From the NCBI RefSeq assembly GCF_900167465.1, contig NZ_FUWR01000001.1, positions 179,269 to 243,268 on the forward strand: 64,000 nucleotides of DNA. Direction: 5' to 3'. The stretch comes from Trichlorobacter thiogenes. Its GTDB lineage: Bacteria > Desulfobacterota > Desulfuromonadia > Geobacterales > Pseudopelobacteraceae. The notes under the pieces were generated by a model. It ran no database searches, had not been told where the DNA came from, and saw only the letters and a program-made list of their open reading frames with translations. Of the stretch, positions 4,688 through 64,000 are shown one piece after another; within the stretch, counting starts at the first letter, position 1; the number at the start of each line of letters is the position of its first letter. The position numbers and the translations under genes were made by a program.

Positions 4688-4860
4688 CTCCTACTCCTTT
4701 CTCTTCTGAAAATCGGTTCAAAAAACCTGATATCTTTTGTTTAACATAATTTTTCAAATGTTCAAGCGGACCAAATAAATATTTTTTATCTTAATACGCC
4801 CTAATTCATGTGCGGCCATTACATCTACACCGCTTGAACAGCCCTAAACCCTGAGAAAGA

Positions 4861-45945: not shown

Positions 45946-46111
45946 TGCGTTGCATCATCATATTACGCACTCGCAACAAAGGAAACAACAGCTCCTCCAT
46001 GAAAATCAAACGGCTCTAGCGGGTTTCAGATTCTAATCTTCAAACTAGCTATTATATTTGATTATTTTTTTGCAGTTTTTTGGGTAGTGTCTCTATAGTG
46101 GCGAGCGTGAA

Positions 46112-54494: not shown

Positions 54495-54525
54495 AAAGGC
54501 ATCCAATCTTGTTTTTCTTCAGTCT

Positions 54526-54561
54526 TTGAACCCTCTACTGGTTGCCTCCGGTAGGGGGTTC
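54526..54561. promoter_or_regulatory. Long hairpin upstream of the DUF927 gene
   Basis: TGAACCCTCTAC and GTAGGGGGTTCA pair around a 12-nt loop (one mismatch region). It lies 32 nt upstream of the DUF927 start and may control replication or translation. Confidence 0.5.
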
Positions 54562-54622
54562 AGTCGTTTCGGGAGTGTTGCTATCACTAAAAACCTTAAT
54601 AATTTCAGCTTGTATCGTGTGT

Positions 54623-54652
54623 ATCAGTTTGTTACAACTTCACGAAACTGAT
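54623..54652. promoter_or_regulatory. Inverted repeat ATCAGTTT-N14-AAACTGAT
   Basis: Perfect 8-bp arms in the AT-rich gap upstream of the DUF927 gene. Confidence 0.5.
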
Positions 54653-54681
54653 TTTATTTAATAATTTCGGACGTATAGCAG

Positions 54682-54699
54682 TGTTTCAGCTGTTTCAGC
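54682..54699. repeat. Tandem TGTTTCAGC repeat (iteron-like)
   Basis: Two exact 9-nt copies side by side; a related ATTTCAGCT occurs at 54602-54610. They lie in the 233-nt gap (54495-54727) beside the replication-type helicase gene, the usual place for a replication origin. Confidence 0.45.
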
Positions 54700-54727
54700 G
54701 CCAAACAATACATAGGGTAAAAAAATC

Positions 54728-55045
54728 TTAAACTTCCGGGGCTGGGGTCTCTGGTTCGATCAGCCGGGGGTACAGCCCATCCATTTGGCACTGAATCTGT
54801 TTCAGCATCTGGCAAAGAGTTTCATCACCATGACCAGCTGCGTACTGGTTGGCGGCATCGATAGAGTCTGCCAGCTGGGAGAGCTGGTTGATGGATGGTA
54901 AGATGAGTGTTCCAAAGTGGATCGGTTCAGGCTTGGAGATACTGGCAGCATCACCAGCCAGCTGCAGCAGGCGGGCCTCATGCTCGGCGGTAAAGCGGGC
55001 AGCAATATTCTGTAGTGCTTGGGGGATCTGGTCTTGAAGTGACAT
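54728..55045 (-). CDS. Small hypothetical phage protein
   Basis: 105 residues, helical and acidic: MSLQDQIPQALQNIAARFTA..., LPSINQLSQLADSIDAANQYA, ending PETPAPEV. Starts 3 nt after the 84-residue gene, AAGGAG upstream. Last gene before the regulatory gap ahead of the DUF927 gene. No family recognised. Confidence 0.6.
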   Translation of the reverse strand: MSLQDQIPQALQNIAARFTAEHEARLLQLAGDAASISKPEPIHFGTLILPSINQLSQLADSIDAANQYAAGHGDETLCQMLKQIQCQMDGLYPRLIEPETPAPEV

Positions 55046-55048
55046 GGT

Positions 55049-55303
55049 TTAGTCTCCTTGCTGGGTGGCAACAGGTGCTATTCTGTCGTTTGGGTAAAGG
55101 GTGTTCTGCACTTCCACCAGCATGTTCAAAACATCATCCAGCAGCCAGCCAAGCCGGTTGGAAACCTCAACGCTTTCCTCATCGTAGGCGCGACCATGCA
55201 GCTGCCCATGCTGTTCATCCGCCAGCACCAGGTAATGGCGCATGTGCTCCAGTTTTAAGGATACGTCCGGCAGTGTGCGGGTGTGGGTGTCTGGTGTATT
55301 CAT
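55049..55303 (-). CDS. Small hypothetical phage protein
   Basis: 84 residues: MNTPDTHTRTLPDVSLKLEH..., then GRAYDEESVEVSNRLGWLLDDVLNML. Overlaps the minor tail Z-like gene by 4 nt, so its translation is coupled. A four-helix or coiled-coil fold is likely. No family recognised. Confidence 0.6.
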   Translation of the reverse strand: MNTPDTHTRTLPDVSLKLEHMRHYLVLADEQHGQLHGRAYDEESVEVSNRLGWLLDDVLNMLVEVQNTLYPNDRIAPVATQQGD

Positions 55304-55935
55304 TGTGTTACCCCCAATCTTTTCATTTCATGGTTGAAGCGGGTGGTGAAGGTGGTCTGAACAAACTGGGTCAGGGGTTTCAGGATTTCTGGTTTACCGA
55401 TCATTGAGGCTGGAGAGATTACTGCTGATTCTGCAATGGGGAGACGTTCTTTCCCCAGCCGCCGGAAAACACCAACGTGGGTGCCGGTTGCGCTGCCCTT
55501 GCCAAACTTGACCCCTGCCAGAAACTGCCGAAGCTGGGTGGTTTTGCCTCTCTCTATCTGGACCCGGACACCTACCTTGCCCCGTTTGATTGCGGTGACG
55601 CCTTTACGGCCCCGCTTGGTCATGCCTGCCGATGTCCGGCGATATTCAACAGCCCCGAAGTAGACCAGGCTGATACCCCCAGCCAGAAAACTGATGGTTG
55701 CGGTAAGATCGTCAGTCACCCTACCCACTGCCTGGATACGTGGCTTTCCTGATGCCTTGTTCAGCAGATCTGTCTGATTGATGTTGTACCTGCCCCTGAT
55801 CAGGCGGCTGGCTTCGGTAAGGGTGCTGGTCTGTACACGAGACATGGCAAGCTTTGCAGCTTTACGGACCTTGCCAACGTCGCCTTTCGCTTTTTGCATG
55901 GCCTCGTTAAGTCCCTTGACCGACATATTCATCAT
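55300..55935 (-). CDS. Prophage minor tail protein Z-like (GpZ family)
   Basis: 211 residues, strongly basic. The pattern matches the prophage minor tail protein Z family: KAAKLAMSRVQTSTLTEASRLI, YNINQTDLLNKA, SFLAGGISLVYFGAVEYR, GVRVQIERGK, THVGVFRRLGKERLPIAESAVISP. In lambda, gpZ acts at the head-tail connector end of the tail. Here the gene lies in the early position, directly after the AlpA-like gene and before the replication gene, far from the other tail genes. Its use by this element may therefore differ from that in a normal tail. Confidence 0.8.
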   Translation of the reverse strand: MMNMSVKGLNEAMQKAKGDVGKVRKAAKLAMSRVQTSTLTEASRLIRGRYNINQTDLLNKASGKPRIQAVGRVTDDLTATISFLAGGISLVYFGAVEYRRTSAGMTKRGRKGVTAIKRGKVGVRVQIERGKTTQLRQFLAGVKFGKGSATGTHVGVFRRLGKERLPIAESAVISPASMIGKPEILKPLTQFVQTTFTTRFNHEMKRLGVTQ

Positions 55936-55956: not shown

Positions 55957-56208
55957 CTAGGCTGCCTGCTGCTGGGTGGTGTGCTGGTTTTCAGTTCGGC
56001 TGGCGATGAATGCCTGAACTGTAGAGAGACGGTAACGAACTGCTTTTCCCAGTTTGACGTATGGGGGGAGGTCGGAAGTTCCGTAGACTCTGGCACGGTT
56101 CAGGGTTGATACTGCCAGGCCAAGTACGGAGGCTGTCTCCTGGACGGTAAGCAGACGGTCACTGCTGATCGGTTCAGGTTGCTGGGTGGTAGGCGAGTTC
56201 TTTTGCAT
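55957..56208 (-). CDS. AlpA/excisionase-family DNA-binding protein
   Basis: 83 residues with a winged helix-turn-helix (LLTVQETASVLGLAVSTLNRARVYGTSDLPPYVKLG..VRYRLSTVQAF) flanked by Gln/Thr-rich tails. This is the AlpA-like / excisionase class seen in P4-like satellites and integrative elements, where it controls excision or early transcription. It is the first gene of the leftward operon and is transcribed away from the repressor across three operators. Confidence 0.85.
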   Translation of the reverse strand: MQKNSPTTQQPEPISSDRLLTVQETASVLGLAVSTLNRARVYGTSDLPPYVKLGKAVRYRLSTVQAFIASRTENQHTTQQQAA

Positions 56209-56243: not shown

Positions 56244-56272
56244 TTGACTACGATTTAAATCGTATGTACGAT
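56244..56272 (+). promoter_or_regulatory. Repressor promoter (autoregulated)
   Basis: TTGACT (56244-56249), 17-nt spacer, TACGAT (56267-56272). Operator 1 lies in the spacer and operator 2 covers the -10. Confidence 0.6.
56249..56264. promoter_or_regulatory. Operator 1 of the lysogeny-type switch
   Basis: TACGATTTAAATCGTA, a perfect 16-bp palindrome between the divergent AlpA-like and repressor genes. Confidence 0.8.
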
Positions 56273-56291
56273 AAGAATCGTATGGTGTCAA
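56263..56291 (-). promoter_or_regulatory. Leftward early promoter for the AlpA-like operon
   Basis: Minus strand TTGACA (56286-56291), 17-nt spacer, TACATA (56263-56268). Overlaps operators 2 and 3, so repressor binding would block it. Confidence 0.5.
56267..56282. promoter_or_regulatory. Operator 2
   Basis: TACGATAAGAATCGTA, 14 of 16 positions symmetric, same half-site as operator 1, 18 nt from it. Confidence 0.8.
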
Positions 56292-56305
56292 CGATTAAAA
56301 TCGTA
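56290..56305. promoter_or_regulatory. Operator 3
   Basis: AACGATTAAAATCGTA, same half-site. It ends just before the AGGAG of the repressor gene, so occupancy could also limit repressor expression. Confidence 0.75.
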
Positions 56306-56317
56306 GGAGCGTAATAA

Positions 56318-57061
56318 ATGGCAGCAAGACCGGCTGGTGGGGGAGTCACTCCTGAAAGAGTAGTCAAGCTTTTACGAGAGGAAGTGGCGAAAACAAGTCA
56401 GGCAGCAACGGCAAGGGCGACTGGTCTAACACTCCGGGGAGTTCAAAACTATCTCAAGGGCATAGGCGATCCCACCACTGCAACCCTGCAGAAGTTGGCT
56501 GATTATTTTGGGAAGTCTGTAGCGTATTTGAGAGGGGAAGAAACCGAGAACAGAATTTCTAAAGTCAGAATAGTAAAAGATTTGATCCAAAAGCCGGGGT
56601 TCTGTGACAATCCTCAAAAGATTGCCCAGTACATCGGTTATTACGGGCTTAAGGCTTCAGCAGAAGAGGTTTCAAGTTCGTTATTGCCTCAGGCTATACA
56701 TGAGTTGACCAATGCAGGTAATGATTACGAAAAGGCCTCACAAGAGACTATTCAAAATATCGTTATTCCAATTTTAACTGAGGTAGCCTTCTTCGGAGGC
56801 ACCAAAGAAGATTTTATTAACCAGTTGGAGCTTAAAGGCATTTCAATTACGGGGTACGATATTGGGCTTACATTTGCTGATGTCGAAAAGGAATTTGCAA
56901 AAATCAGAAAGGACATTGCAAAAGAGCTTGGCATTTTTGAGTCAACTTTACTGGAAAATGCAAAAGCTTTTTTGGCTATACCAGAGGAAAGACGTGAAGA
57001 AGCTCTGGCAATCCTGCAGCGTGAAGGGATCATCCCCCCAACTACAGACCCGGTGAAGTGA
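56318..57061 (+). CDS. Helix-turn-helix repressor of the element
   Basis: 247 residues. An N-terminal XRE-type helix-turn-helix (about 10-75: VVKLLREEVAKTSQAATARATGLTLRGVQNYLKG..DPTTATLQKLADYFG) is followed by a helical C-terminal region of about 170 residues with no LexA/S24 protease motif. It should therefore be inactivated by a route other than RecA-stimulated self-cleavage, for instance an antirepressor. AGGAGCGTAATAA precedes the ATG. Three matching operators lie between it and the AlpA-like gene. Confidence 0.85.
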   Translation: MAARPAGGGVTPERVVKLLREEVAKTSQAATARATGLTLRGVQNYLKGIGDPTTATLQKLADYFGKSVAYLRGEETENRISKVRIVKDLIQKPGFCDNPQKIAQYIGYYGLKASAEEVSSSLLPQAIHELTNAGNDYEKASQETIQNIVIPILTEVAFFGGTKEDFINQLELKGISITGYDIGLTFADVEKEFAKIRKDIAKELGIFESTLLENAKAFLAIPEERREEALAILQREGIIPPTTDPVK

Positions 57062-57392
57062 GGTTTTCTCACTTCACCCATAAACCATAAACCACCACCA
57101 GCCATCACCCGCCCACCTCATCACCCTGCATCCACCGTTTTTGATTTTATTTTTCCCCTTGTATTGGTTTGCCCTGAAACAGCAGCTACAGCGAAACAAT
57201 GCTGAAATCATTGGACAAAACAGCATTTTTGAGTATGTAACAAGCTGATACATATGATACACGCTGATATTGTTGGTGTTTTTGGTGGTTGGGTGGGGTA
57301 ATTGAGCAAGAAGATGATGAGGGCCGGTTGCAAACTGCCAAAGTCTTGCTACAGTTGGCTGTAGTTTCTGATTCTTCTAAGGAGCATTCCCC
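57062..57392. other. Intergenic region upstream of the HsdR-N-like gene
   Basis: 331 nt without a convincing gene. It contains the first copy of a 157-nt direct repeat unit (57141-57297), a possible promoter TTGCAA-N16-TACAGT (57329-57356) and a small hairpin CTACAG-TTGG-CTGTAG (57349-57364) directly ahead of the RBS. Confidence 0.6.
57141..57297. repeat. 157-nt direct repeat unit, copy 1
   Basis: The outer 34 nt (57141-57174) are identical to 58576-58609, and the other outer 34 nt (57264-57297) match 58699-58732 at 33 of 34. The interior is the same length (89 nt) in both copies but strongly diverged. The right end is G/T-rich (GGTGGTTGGGTGGGG) and could form a two-tier G-quadruplex. Confidence 0.8.
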
Positions 57393-58565
57393 ATGCCAGA
57401 TTTTAAAGATCGCCTTGTCCGCCACGCTGAGCATATCAAGAACGTAAGCAGCCATTGCAGTACTGAGGAGACCACCAAGCAGGCGCTTATTCTACCCCTG
57501 CTGGATGCCTTGGGTTTTAGCCCCTATGATCCGACGAAGGTGCAGGCAGAGTACGGGGCAAATCTGCCAGGTATCAAGGCCAATGAGAGGGTGGATTATG
57601 CCCTGTTTGTGGCTGGTAATCCGGTTATGTTCATTGAGGCAAAGTCTTGTTCTGATAAGCTTACCAACCATACTGGCCAGCTGGTGAGATATTTCAACTC
57701 TACCCCTGGGGTTTCAGTGGCAGCCATTACCAATGGTCGTGAGTGGCGGTTTTACAGTGATCAGAAGCATACGAATATTATGGATACGACTCCGTTTCTT
57801 GTGGTGGATTTTGAGTCTCTTGCAGATTCTGACGCTGATAAGCTTTCTCGCTTCAGGTACGATAAATTCAATCCTGATGGTTTACGCAGTTTTGCAGAGG
57901 AGCAGACGTTGCTTGAGTGCTTTACCGCTGCTATTGAGAGTTGCTTGCGGGAGCCTGATGCTGATTTTATCCGGTTTGTGGCCACCAGATCAGATGCTGC
58001 TGGCAGGTTGACCCCGAAACAGGTTGAAGCGTACACGCCTATTGTGAAGCAGGCCTTGGTAGAGGCTATCAGCAAGGTTGTTGTGGGTGGGCTGTCTGCT
58101 CCTGTGCCTGCCCCGGCAACGGAACCGGCTGCAGTACCACGCTGTGATTGCCCCGATGGTGATGTTGTCGATCCTGATAATCCCAAGATTGTTACGACTG
58201 AGGCTGAACGCCGGGTGCTGGCACTGGTGCAGGCCATTCTGGACGGTAAGGCAGAAGAGTCTGAGATAGTGGGGAAGGATACAGAGAGTTATTTTTCTGT
58301 TTGCTATCAAGGGAAGAACAATCGCTGGCTGTTGCGCTACCACGGGGATAGAGCCACCCCGTACATCAGCTTCAATATCCCGATGACGCTTGAGCGCACG
58401 AAGCAGGCAGCCAGGGCAGGTTTGGTGGTTCAGCCAAACAATACGATCGCTCTGGTGAAGCCTGAACATCTGATGAAGCTTTCAAATGTGCTGTTTGATG
58501 CACTGGAGTTTTGCAAGAATGATGAGAATTTTAAACGGAAGGGTAATGGTGAAGAGTCAGCGTAA
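57393..58565 (+). CDS. Orphan HsdR N-terminal-domain-like nuclease protein
   Basis: 390 residues. Residues about 20-150 resemble the N-terminal nuclease domain of type I restriction subunits: TKQALILPLLDALGF, then RVDYALF...PVMFIEAKS, the Asp and Glu-x-Lys of a PD-(D/E)XK site, and QLVRYFNSTPGVSVAAITNGREWRFY. There is no helicase and no hsdM or hsdS nearby. The C-terminal part (about 255-380) is a separate domain of unknown role. AAGGAGCATTCCCC precedes the ATG. It is framed by 157-nt direct repeats and is probably cargo, possibly anti-phage. Confidence 0.82.
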   Translation: MPDFKDRLVRHAEHIKNVSSHCSTEETTKQALILPLLDALGFSPYDPTKVQAEYGANLPGIKANERVDYALFVAGNPVMFIEAKSCSDKLTNHTGQLVRYFNSTPGVSVAAITNGREWRFYSDQKHTNIMDTTPFLVVDFESLADSDADKLSRFRYDKFNPDGLRSFAEEQTLLECFTAAIESCLREPDADFIRFVATRSDAAGRLTPKQVEAYTPIVKQALVEAISKVVVGGLSAPVPAPATEPAAVPRCDCPDGDVVDPDNPKIVTTEAERRVLALVQAILDGKAEESEIVGKDTESYFSVCYQGKNNRWLLRYHGDRATPYISFNIPMTLERTKQAARAGLVVQPNNTIALVKPEHLMKLSNVLFDALEFCKNDENFKRKGNGEESA

Positions 58566-58575
58566 TGGGTATACT

Positions 58576-58732
58576 TTGATTTTATTTTTCCCCTTGTATT
58601 GGTTTGCCCAGTTAGTGCCGTTAATCAGTTAAGTTACTGATATAAATAAGCAAAATAGCCATTTTCAACAAGTTAAGGCCGGTTAGGCGGGTTAAGTACT
58701 GATATTGTTGGTTTTTTTGGTGGTTGGGTGGT
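58576..58732. repeat. 157-nt direct repeat unit, copy 2
   Basis: See copy 1 at 57141-57297. It starts 11 nt after the HsdR-N-like stop. The interior has four GTTAAG/GTTAGG units. It ends GGTGGTTGGGTGGTGGG. Confidence 0.8.
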
Positions 58733-58785
58733 GGGATGTTAGCAGGCAGCATTGACATTATGTTATTTTGTAGTTATAAATAATC

Positions 58786-59061
58786 ATGCGTTATGAGCGG
58801 GATGAAGATAAGCGACTGGCAAATCTTGAAAAGCACGGGCTTGACCTTGCTGATGCCGATCTGGTTTACGAGCATCAGCAAAAGCTGACGGTGCCCTGCA
58901 AAACCACCCATGAAGAACGGTGGCAGGATTTTGCAGAGGTTGACGGCATTCTTGCCGTGCTTACCTGTGTGTACACCAGGCGGAATGATACGGTACGCTT
59001 TATTTCGTTCCGCTATGCCAGTCGTAAGGAAAGGAAGGTGTATTATGGGGCAGATCGTTAG
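58786..59061 (+). CDS. brnT: BrnT-family toxin (type II toxin-antitoxin)
   Basis: 91 residues with the BrnT layout: a short acidic/basic start (RYERDEDKRLANLEKHGLDLADADLVYEH), a central DGILAVLTCVYTRRNDTVRFISFRYASRKER and a terminal Tyr. BrnT has a RelE-like ribonuclease fold; the R...S.R.A..ER segment carries the catalytic Arg/Ser type residues. The antitoxin starts 17 nt before its stop, in the usual toxin-first order. No strong RBS is visible. Confidence 0.88.
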   Translation: MRYERDEDKRLANLEKHGLDLADADLVYEHQQKLTVPCKTTHEERWQDFAEVDGILAVLTCVYTRRNDTVRFISFRYASRKERKVYYGADR

Positions 59062-59380
59062 CCATACCAGTGAAGAGCTGAAGGCCATGCGCGCCCGTGG
59101 CGAATCAAAAAGCGACTGGACACGGGTAAAACGTAACTATGACGCCGGTATTGAACCTGCTGCTGACGAAGATAGCCCGGACATGTCGGCTGCTTTACGG
59201 GAGCATGTGGCAACATTGAAGCGAGGCAGGGTACTGGGCAGCGGAACCAAGGTACAGAAGACGGTACGGTTTGATATTGCGGTGTTCGAGGCGTTTAAGG
59301 CAACCGGTAAGGGGTGGCAGACCAGAATGAATGAGGCCCTTAAAACCTACCTGAAGGAACATCCGCTTAATCATGTGTGA
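59045..59380 (+). CDS. brnA: BrnA-family antitoxin
   Basis: 111 residues from the ATG at 59045, overlapping the toxin gene by 17 nt; GGAAAGGTG is upstream. The N-terminal part (SEELKAMRARGESKSDWTRV) binds toxin. The C-terminal ribbon-helix-helix (KVQKTVRFDIAVFEAFKATGKGWQTRMNEALKTYL) binds DNA and should autoregulate the pair. Confidence 0.88.
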   Translation: MGQIVSHTSEELKAMRARGESKSDWTRVKRNYDAGIEPAADEDSPDMSAALREHVATLKRGRVLGSGTKVQKTVRFDIAVFEAFKATGKGWQTRMNEALKTYLKEHPLNHV

Positions 59381-60668: not shown

Positions 60669-61112
60669 ATGGAACACGAGCCTTTACTTCCTCCAGGTAT
60701 CCACGACATCACTGAAGATCAACTCGATAATCATTTTCTGAGTTCATTTTCAACGTCAACTACACGGCAGCCGTTAATAAACGGTTTAAAGTCCTTTATA
60801 GCGTTCCTGCGTAAACTCGGCATTCCGTGTGAAATGTGGATAGATGGATCATTTACAACCAACAAAGTCGACCCAAATGATATAGATCTGGTTGTTTTTG
60901 CTTCTGAGTCAGATGTGAATCAGCTGGATAGTGATAAGCAACTGCTATTAGCAAATCTAATAGACAGAGCATCAAGCAAACGTAGATTTGGATGTGACGT
61001 GCTATTTGCTGTGGCAGAAGATTTTGAAATGAGAAGCTACTGGCGTGGCTGGTATGGTTTTGATAGGCAAGAGAGGCCAAAGGGCGTAGCAAAAATTATG
61101 GTGACGTCATGA
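60669..61112 (+). CDS. DUF6932-like / nucleotidyltransferase-fold protein
   Basis: 147 residues, AT-rich gene. The central WIDGSFTTNKVDPNDIDLVVF is the G-S-x(n)-D-x-D pattern of the polymerase-beta-type nucleotidyltransferase fold (MNT class). A possible third acid lies in CDVLF. The preceding LINGLKSFIAFLRKLGIPCE region is typical of DUF6932. TATGGGGACTT precedes the ATG. It overlaps the next gene by 4 nt (ATGA). In other bacteria minimal nucleotidyltransferases often work as antitoxins that modify a partner toxin, or in defence; that role here is inference. Confidence 0.7.
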   Translation: MEHEPLLPPGIHDITEDQLDNHFLSSFSTSTTRQPLINGLKSFIAFLRKLGIPCEMWIDGSFTTNKVDPNDIDLVVFASESDVNQLDSDKQLLLANLIDRASSKRRFGCDVLFAVAEDFEMRSYWRGWYGFDRQERPKGVAKIMVTS

Positions 61113-62035
61113 TTGATCGTCTTCGTAAATTAAAAAATGATGCATTAAAGCATCAGATAGATCTATCTCAAAAAGCTGGAGACGGTGGTAACTTAGCTTA
61201 TCAGCTAGCGGCTCAATCTATGTCTAGCCATATTGACGATCTGTCTCAACAAATTGCATTACTTGATGAAAGACCAATCTTTGAATTTTTAGAGTTTAGG
61301 TTAATTGCATCCAAATTAAGGGATGGATCTATACCTTTAAGCCTACTTGCTAAAGTAGTAGACGAAATACGACAGATGATAGGGCATGCTGCTTTAAGGC
61401 TTTCTCAGGGGGGGATGTGGAGAAAGAGGGTATCAAAAGACCTATACAATGATTTAGATCTGAGATTAGCAGCAATCTTACCAGGTTCTTCTCGGCTTGT
61501 AATTTCAACATCTGCCCAAAGAGATCTTTTTGACGACGGTCTCTCAAAAAATGCTTTTGAACGTATATTTAAAGTACTTGATAGCCAAGGAGAAGGTGGA
61601 CACTTTCTTGAAGCTGTTACCGATCTTGGTCCAGCCAGTGCTCGACGCTTGCGTGAATTTCTACATCTACTTCGTAGCAACTCAGCAGAGTTGCAGCTCT
61701 CATGGCGCTACTCAGGCAACACTGTAAAGCAGTGGAACGGGGATTCAGAATCGATTGTAAATGTTGCCTTTGCTCTTGATTCAACGGAATTAATTGCAAA
61801 GGATAGCATAGAACTTGAAGGCTACATTGAATTGTTAAGTAAGCGAGAACGCATACACTTAACCACCGACGATTCAAGGACAATTAGGATACTTTTCCCC
61901 AAAAGACTTTTAAGGGCAGTTTCAGAACTTCACTTGGATCAACGGGTCAAACTTCTCTGTTCGGTTACTGAAACAGAAAATCCCTTAACTGGCGAATCTT
62001 CCATTTTTTATGAACTTGAAGATATCATTGACTGA
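61109..62035 (+). CDS. Unrecognised partner of the nucleotidyltransferase-fold protein
   Basis: 308 residues, translationally coupled to the preceding gene (4-nt overlap). An N-terminal coiled-coil region (about 1-52) is followed by a helical block (RPIFEFLEFRLIASKLRDGSIPLSLLAKVVDEI), a segment RLAAILPGSSRLVISTSAQRDLF, another helical part (FLEAVTDLGPASARRLREFLHLL) and a beta-rich C-terminus (from about 200). No catalytic motif, TM helix or known domain was recognised. Coupling to a nucleotidyltransferase suggests they act together as a toxin-antitoxin-like or defence module. Confidence 0.65.
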   Translation: MIDRLRKLKNDALKHQIDLSQKAGDGGNLAYQLAAQSMSSHIDDLSQQIALLDERPIFEFLEFRLIASKLRDGSIPLSLLAKVVDEIRQMIGHAALRLSQGGMWRKRVSKDLYNDLDLRLAAILPGSSRLVISTSAQRDLFDDGLSKNAFERIFKVLDSQGEGGHFLEAVTDLGPASARRLREFLHLLRSNSAELQLSWRYSGNTVKQWNGDSESIVNVAFALDSTELIAKDSIELEGYIELLSKRERIHLTTDDSRTIRILFPKRLLRAVSELHLDQRVKLLCSVTETENPLTGESSIFYELEDIID

Positions 62036-63530: not shown

Positions 63531-64000
63531 CTATATGCAAGCGCCTGCCACCAGATTCTTGTCCCCAACTGAAGGGGCATCAGCAATCAATTCCGTGATC
63601 CTGTCCGCTATTTTTTGCATCGGCCCCCGCAGCCGTTCTGTTGTGATCTGGATATACCCACCGGTAACATCATTCCCCATGCTGTGATTCAGTAAAGCCT
63701 TCAAGCTGTAGTGTGGCACGTCCAGGCTTTCAGCAATAGTGATGAAGGTACGTCGAAGGTCATGGAAACAGAACTGGACATCGGTTACAGCTATGATGTC
63801 CCGCTTGTAGTTGTCAGGATTACTCAGGAATGGCGAGGGATGCTTGCCGGGGAAGATATATTCATTCTCATACCCGGCAGCCCGACGCTTCAACAGCAAC
63901 TTGTAAAGCTGTTCTGACATAGGCATGGTCACCTGATCGTCTTCCGGCTTTTCACCCCGCTTCTTTTCAGGAATGAAAGAGAATGCCTTCCTCTTAAAAT
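63531..64000 (-). CDS. Tyrosine recombinase/integrase, C-terminal part
   Basis: The 5' part lies beyond the window; about 155 residues are visible. In-frame codons continue upstream of a GTG at 63932 to the window edge (FKRKAFSFIPEKKRGEKPEDDQ), so that GTG is not the start. Catalytic-domain features: FCFHDLRRTFITIAESL (His-x-x-Arg), ALLNHSMGNDV (the His/Trp position) and the candidate nucleophile Tyr in TGGYIQIT. The sequence resembles phage/P4-type integrases that insert at tRNA or similar sites. It should mobilise an element in this region, on whichever side of it. Confidence 0.9.
   Translation of the reverse strand, partial: FKRKAFSFIPEKKRGEKPEDDQVTMPMSEQLYKLLLKRRAAGYENEYIFPGKHPSPFLSNPDNYKRDIIAVTDVQFCFHDLRRTFITIAESLDVPHYSLKALLNHSMGNDVTGGYIQITTERLRGPMQKIADRITELIADAPSVGDKNLVAGACI

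Follow-up and report, generated by a model that had tools for sequence, protein, structure and literature searches.

Repeats around an orphan nuclease gene of Trichlorobacter thiogenes are probable iteron origins of a satellite-like or defective-prophage element

Introduction

The window analysed here is a stretch of 64,000 nucleotides from Trichlorobacter thiogenes (assembly GCF_900167465.1, contig NZ_FUWR01000001.1, positions 179,269 to 243,268 of the forward strand), in which an initial annotation had described an orphan nuclease gene framed by two 157-nt direct repeats. Judged from sequence, it is highly probable that these repeats are copies of an iteron replication origin of the type used by Staphylococcus aureus pathogenicity islands (SaPIs) and by Cch helicases, carried by a satellite-like or defective-prophage element of about 18.9 kb. 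A third copy in the window, site A (54732-54581, minus strand), had been missed. The origin arrangement is new and, as no origin lies directly 3' of the initiator gene, we call it a variant of the type found in SaPIs and phage-inducible chromosomal islands (PICIs) and not a textbook member. The features that carry this reading are:

54581..54732, minus strand: putative origin copy A, placed between the DUF927 helicase start and a small gene upstream of it
57137..57299, plus strand: putative origin copy B1 (copy 1 of the initial annotation), with words matching site A
57176, 57185, 57193; 57237, 57247, 57256, plus strand: iteron starts of B1
58573..58734, plus strand: putative origin copy C2 (copy 2 of the initial annotation), with outer blocks as in B1 and another word
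58611, 58620, 58628; 58672, 58682, 58691, plus strand: iteron starts of C2
52467..54506, minus strand: DUF927 self-loading initiator helicase of the SaPIbov1 Rep/Cch type, the proposed iteron reader via its C-terminal domain (about aa 590-670)

Results

One copy of the unit measures 157-165 nt. The left blocks of B1 and C2 (57140-57174 and 58575-58609) are identical in 35/35 positions and the right blocks (57264-57296 and 58699-58731) in 32/33, while the interiors, 89 nt each, share 42/89 letters, so the near-identical ends and equally long, diverged interiors noted at the outset are borne out. The start-to-start distance between left and right block is 124 in both copies. With up to three mismatches allowed, two matches to the left block were found in the window and none in 100 shuffles, and across the whole 3.57 Mb genome each block is found at B1 and C2 only.

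Aligning the window interiors with the corresponding site of a sister element, introduced below, resolved each copy into two triplets of 5-nt direct repeats (iterons) around an AT-rich spacer, with spacings of 9 and 8, then 10 and 9, the second triplet beginning 61 nt after the start of the first. The two spaced direct repeats reported for each interior are therefore real, yet they are two triplets of a 5-mer. B1 reads GAAAC, GCTAC, GAAAC and GTAAC, GATAC, GATAC, whereas all six words of C2 are GTTAG or GTTAA. Markov simulations of equal composition, 20000 for each of five sites, never reached the observed consistency of the six words. The spacers of B1 and C2 have an A+T content of about 70-75 % by hand count, and the inverted word that they contain is degraded. 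GC skew gave no clear mark at the window sites.

The open minus-strand frame NHQK-x-QQYQ, which B1, C2 and the sister's B site all have, could point to a structured RNA or to a duplicated protein-coding end. The frame can indeed be read in both copies, but it belongs to no gene, no gene continues it, and it is not kept in either of the A sites, which lie upstream of helicase genes. It arises as a side effect of the conserved block combined with iterons spaced 9 nt apart, and the iterons account for its V-T-like repeats. When both strands of all three window sites were folded as RNA, z scores ranged from -1.31 to +1.27, and no Rfam match was found at the sites in the stretch searched, so that we attach next to no probability to this explanation. 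The G/T-rich right ends, likewise reported earlier, exist in B1 and C2 but are absent from the two sites upstream of helicase genes.

A family-wide DNA search returned one full-length relative of the unit, at 75 % identity in a same-genus genome (G069). The sister element found there has a single B-type copy between a repressor gene and BrnTA, without the nuclease; its left flank corresponds to the left flank of B1 and its right flank to the right flank of C2. A profile was first built from three sites (B1, C2 and sister B) and later refined. In its three-site form, built without site A, it finds window positions 54731-54583 (minus strand) with an E value of 8.9e-17 and a sister site A (L011, 9843-9987) with 5.5e-23, both directly upstream of the DUF927 helicase gene of their own element. 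The sister thus holds two sites in all, A beside the helicase gene and B. The words of window site A are GAAAC, GAAAC, GCTAT and GTAAC, GATAC, GATAC, and its spacer holds an inverted GTTTC; the inverted word of sister B (CGTAAC) stands at the same column, and that of sister A is approximate.

Comparison of these sites reveals that blocks and iterons group differently. The outer blocks of B1, C2 and sister B share 48-49 of 50 letters. The iterons go with the element: B1 agrees with window A in 25/30 letters and sister A with sister B in 30/30, against 21-22/30 for sites of the same type across the two elements. C2 breaks this rule, having only 16/30 iteron letters in common with B1, despite 49/50 block letters, and likewise 16/30 with A. 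A and B1, which lie 2.4 kb apart on opposite strands, are a matched inverted pair, and C2 carries a different word. Such discordance between blocks and iterons is the pattern that a trans-acting reader would produce, and the element's own DUF927 helicase is the best candidate for this reader. The suggestion of a repeated unit with a variable recognition core thus holds, the core being the iterons, whose word changes between elements.

The helicase sequence matches 8tch and 5dgk. Its predicted model (mean predicted local distance difference test score 84.5; the structure job used 34 of 40 candidate viral proteins) has Cch, 5dgk, as its closest solved structure (Z 30.9, root-mean-square deviation (rmsd) 6.0, 489 aligned), followed over model residues 97-677 by the SaPIbov1 replication initiator, 8tch (Z 27.2, rmsd 7.5, 464 aligned), whereas minichromosome maintenance helicases score far lower, with Z of about 14. 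On this model, the protein is homologous to SaPIbov1 Rep and to Cch of the staphylococcal cassette chromosome mec (SCCmec) over nearly the whole fold. Window and sister helicases are about 90 % identical, and their differences peak at aa 598-664 (56/200 nt; 0/5000 permutations), where the synonymous divergence dS reaches 1.07 against about 0.33 in the core. Two changes fall in helix 632-641, which from the predicted order of secondary structure elements we take as the recognition helix.

Site A lies upstream of the helicase gene, 75-77 nt short of its start. No site was found 3' of the window helicase gene, where the next gene starts about 100 nt past the stop codon. The leader between A and the helicase start (54507-54585, minus strand) folds into a stable hairpin (z -3.28) that, by eye, is kept in the sister element and overlaps a sub-threshold Rfam match to ctRNA_pGA1 (22.2 bits against 45); a role in copy-number or translation control is possible.

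To look beyond the two elements, 78 other DUF927 loci (65 on viral contigs, 12 in relatives and one in the own genome) were scanned for sites of 3+3 iterons. The viral loci came from an alignment search of viral contigs; a single-sequence search of these contigs had confirmed no DUF927 relative. A 3+3 site lies within 700 nt of the DUF927 gene at 41/78 loci, not counting the far-off match at L175, and nearly all of the 41 are found 15-350 nt downstream of the stop codon. A first look at the regions upstream of distant DUF927 genes had turned up nothing comparable, because there the site lies downstream. Sites scoring at least 38 number 44 in 690 kb of DUF927 loci against one in 493 kb of controls, and inverted site pairs occur at 11 of the 78 loci. 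The spacer contains an inverted iteron (6 or 7 of 7 letters) in 44/50 sites, or 31/36 when counted by distinct word, compared with 10 % of shuffled spacers; a direct copy in the spacer occurs in 0/50. Word similarity also follows the identity of the helicase C-terminus once the core is accounted for, with a partial r of 0.37 (0/1999 permutations; 41 proteins, 124 pairs of core identity 0.60-0.97; the truncated or artefact loci L175, L212, L214, L215 and L216 left out).

Two of these loci deserve separate mention. On viral contig L156, inverted iteron clusters at 2251-2357 and 4706-4810 flank most of the helicase gene and, being 2.4 kb apart, form the closest parallel to the spaced A/B1 pair of the window. 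The second DUF927 element of the own genome (L095, contig C11, about 700-1165) has direct and inverted iterons of a GTTACC type directly downstream of its helicase gene, with a word unlike those of all three window sites.

The unit itself is rare. The search for the blocks genome-wide and in relatives, as the initial annotation had proposed, gave the two copies in the own genome and one sister genome that also carries the unit. Strong profile matches were obtained in 2/138 genomes of the order and 2/277 of the class, which are the same two genomes; the exact block pattern has one record in the contigs of GTDB r220, and the unit was found in none of the plasmids or phages searched. Taken together, block searches of the own genome, family, order, class, plasmids, phages, viral contigs and GTDB contigs returned only the window element and its sister.

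Weak profile matches (E 1e-4 to 0.1) appeared in 16/138 other genomes of the order and 12/277 of the class. Of those inspected, at five and then three loci, the strongest lies in a coding gene and others are poor; one, in a prophage of G038, was kept as a lead. The conserved motif TGATATTATTAAMGAAAAC gave 34 matches in viral contigs, all in coding-looking sequence without iterons, and three viral matches to the right-block pattern were judged from their sequence to be chance. A 21-mer, TGATATTATTAAAGAAAACAG, recurs in the G038 prophage (L113, 6800-6870) with one mismatch from the spacer of the sister's A site; by eye it sits there amid CTTCCCG/CGGGAAG repeats near a terminase-like gene, and within one mismatch it is found in only 2/271 genomes, G038 and the sister.

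This distribution bears on another explanation, in which the repeats are recombination or cassette-attachment sites: nuclease-like cargo would come with one copy each and be exchanged by a recombinase, the interior being the crossover code. The sister's single copy without nuclease, with flanks matching the left of B1 and the right of C2, fits this, as does the homology between B1 and C2 that ends at the site edges. Against it, the unit is known from two genomes, not in many copies, and with no second cargo; copy A adjoins the helicase gene and has no cargo; unrelated DUF927 elements share the site plan without cargo; and the integrase has its own attachment core elsewhere, at 45999..46016. 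We therefore consider cassette exchange very unlikely. Cargo swapping, which had been put forward as the function of the repeats, is not supported: the unit was found in these two elements only, unrelated elements have the site plan beside their helicase gene, and the flanks of 15 nuclease relatives elsewhere (L017-L019, L021-L032) show no 157-nt pair. Variation of cargo at the site is real to the extent of one difference, the single copy and absent nuclease of the sister; no other cargo was seen.

The element, about 18.9 kb between its attachment cores, is integrated at the 5' end of host smc. Its further features, given from left to right, are:

45999..46016, plus strand: left attachment core; the same word stands at the host smc start codon beyond the window (L094:1168)
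55957..56208, minus strand: AlpA/excisionase-like HTH_17 protein
56318..57061, plus strand: phage-type helix-turn-helix repressor, upstream of B1; an unrelated gene takes its place in the sister
57393..58565, plus strand: orphan nuclease gene, the cargo flanked by B1 and C2 and missing in the sister (HSDR_N, 6.3e-14; phrog_4225 'endonuclease', full-length, 6.7e-122)
58786..59061, plus strand: BrnT toxin gene, starting 52 nt after C2; its sister counterpart comes after the single site
59045..59380, plus strand: BrnA antitoxin gene
63531..63998, minus strand: integrase gene, cut by the window end and continuing into L094

Genes for a tape measure, a tail chaperone and HicAB also belong to the element, and no terminase, portal or capsid gene was found among the element proteins scanned. 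It thus combines the hallmarks of a satellite, namely an integrase, an AlpA/Xis-like regulator, a replication module, small size and an incomplete set of virion genes. On its gene content it may be a phage satellite or, given the tape-measure and tail genes, a defective prophage. A tail-completion gene (neck1-like, phrog_27; 55300-55935) is reduced to a 3' remnant in the sister. Near HicAB and BrnTA, PADLOC reports a candidate defence pair, PDC-M63A/B (60669-62035; E 1e-52 and 1e-102). Three tandem palindromes of TACGATTTAAATCGTA type at 56249-56307, between the repressor and AlpA-like genes, are likely repressor operators.

The gene map also invites the idea that the iterons control transcription of the helicase and cargo genes through the repressor, the AlpA-like protein or some other regulator that binds them. 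Every copy is indeed followed, after 50-95 nt, by a gene in its own orientation (helicase, nuclease, BrnT), and the repressor is wholly different between the sister elements, as are the iteron words. The operator-like palindromes are, however, separate from the repeats, BrnT has its own sigma70-like promoter after C2, and elsewhere the same site plan is found downstream of the helicase gene, tracking the helicase C-terminus. Transcription control by these sites appears highly improbable to us.

Discussion

In the origin reading that we prefer, the DUF927 helicase would bind the six iterons through its C-terminal winged-helix-like domain, recognising a plan of three direct copies, an AT-rich spacer with an inverted copy and again three direct copies. 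The bound helicase would open the AT-rich stretch, whereupon replication of the excised circle could start; the inverted sites A and B1 would probably each receive one helicase ring. What the sequences show is the site plan, the third copy beside the helicase gene, the sharing of words within an element and the helicase homology; that the helicase binds and melts these sites, that replication starts there and what each copy does is our inference. Since it is B1 and not C2 whose words agree with A, we take C2 as the probable older origin, left over and now mismatched, from before a change of the replication module. On the most economical account, the ancestor would have carried a repressor-origin-BrnTA order, as in the sister, and the second origin would have come with the nuclease, whose gene lies between the putative new origin (B1) and the putative old one (C2).

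Several observations weigh against this reading. SaPIs and most of the DUF927 loci scanned have their site immediately 3' of the helicase gene, whereas here A is upstream and B1 2.4 kb away. The detector found no site at 37/78 DUF927 loci and missed A, B1 and C2, the window iterons being less perfect than most. At a score of at least 36 it also gave 21 control matches, 20 of them at 36-37 and mostly coding repeats, which makes low scores unreliable. When the 41 proteins were dereplicated to 32 for a test over all loci, the partial r between word and C-terminus fell to 0.133 (44/999 permutations). The divergent helicase C-terminus is moreover the edge of a larger divergent block running into the next genes, so its change need not be a targeted exchange; whole-stretch exchange and selection on the C-terminal domain are equally likely. 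Finally, the history of the module change rests on one sister element, and its direction may be gain in the window element or loss in the sister.

A wider idea would treat satellite origins as exchangeable modules, the outer blocks serving as homology joints and the iteron core setting which helicase reads them. An element with two codes could then also be copied by the helicase of a co-resident relative, and the nuclease, carried between the two codes, may act in rivalry among satellites or phages, as Odn does. We hold this idea to be unlikely.

The plan of three direct, one inverted and three direct words offers a way to find origins of DUF927-helicase satellites from sequence, and where the iteron word tracks the C-terminal domain it should predict which helicase reads which origin. 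DUF927-helicase elements on many phage-like contigs carry such a site, often as an inverted pair. In the literature searched, which did not include two key SaPI origin papers, no description of this plan was found. One element with two codes also provides a handle on how mobile elements change their replication specificity, a change known from the PICI-like elements (PLEs) of Vibrio and seldom caught half-way.

Among known replicons, phage P4 has two separate iteron sites, ori1 and crr, bound by its initiator helicase. Its alpha protein differs from the window helicase in being a primase-helicase fusion. With a SaPIbov1-type replicon the window element shares the fold of the initiator helicase over nearly its whole length and an AT-rich stretch bordered by iteron sets; origin reading by the helicase C-terminal domain, published for SaPIs, may be a further likeness. 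It differs in having site A upstream of the helicase gene, a second site 2.4 kb off and three sites, one of them with a different word. According to PMC7581432, SaPI Rep recognises its short-iteron origin with the C-terminal domain, Cch carries DUF927 and is related to SaPIbov1 Rep, and Cch2 needs three 5-nt iterons. Cch is the nearest solved structure to the window helicase and likewise has DUF927, but the SCCmec Cch/Cch2 module belongs to a different type of element, with its putative origin downstream of the cch2 operon. In every PICI origin, according to the Fig. 2 legend of PMC6092414, an AT-rich region is flanked by two sets of iterons. The window element resembles Gram-negative PICIs in its integrase and AlpA-like protein, unlike them carrying tape-measure and other tail genes. 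In Vibrio PLEs, as described in PMC8263062, origin and initiator covary and swap by recombination, recombination of the initiator gene being inferred there as well, and in the PLE/ICP1 system the origins are attacked by the origin-directed nuclease Odn. The likeness to our element would be a joint change of the origin iterons and of the initiator domain that reads the DNA, although the RepA_N initiator of PLEs is unrelated and not a helicase, and their iterons measure about 30 bp.
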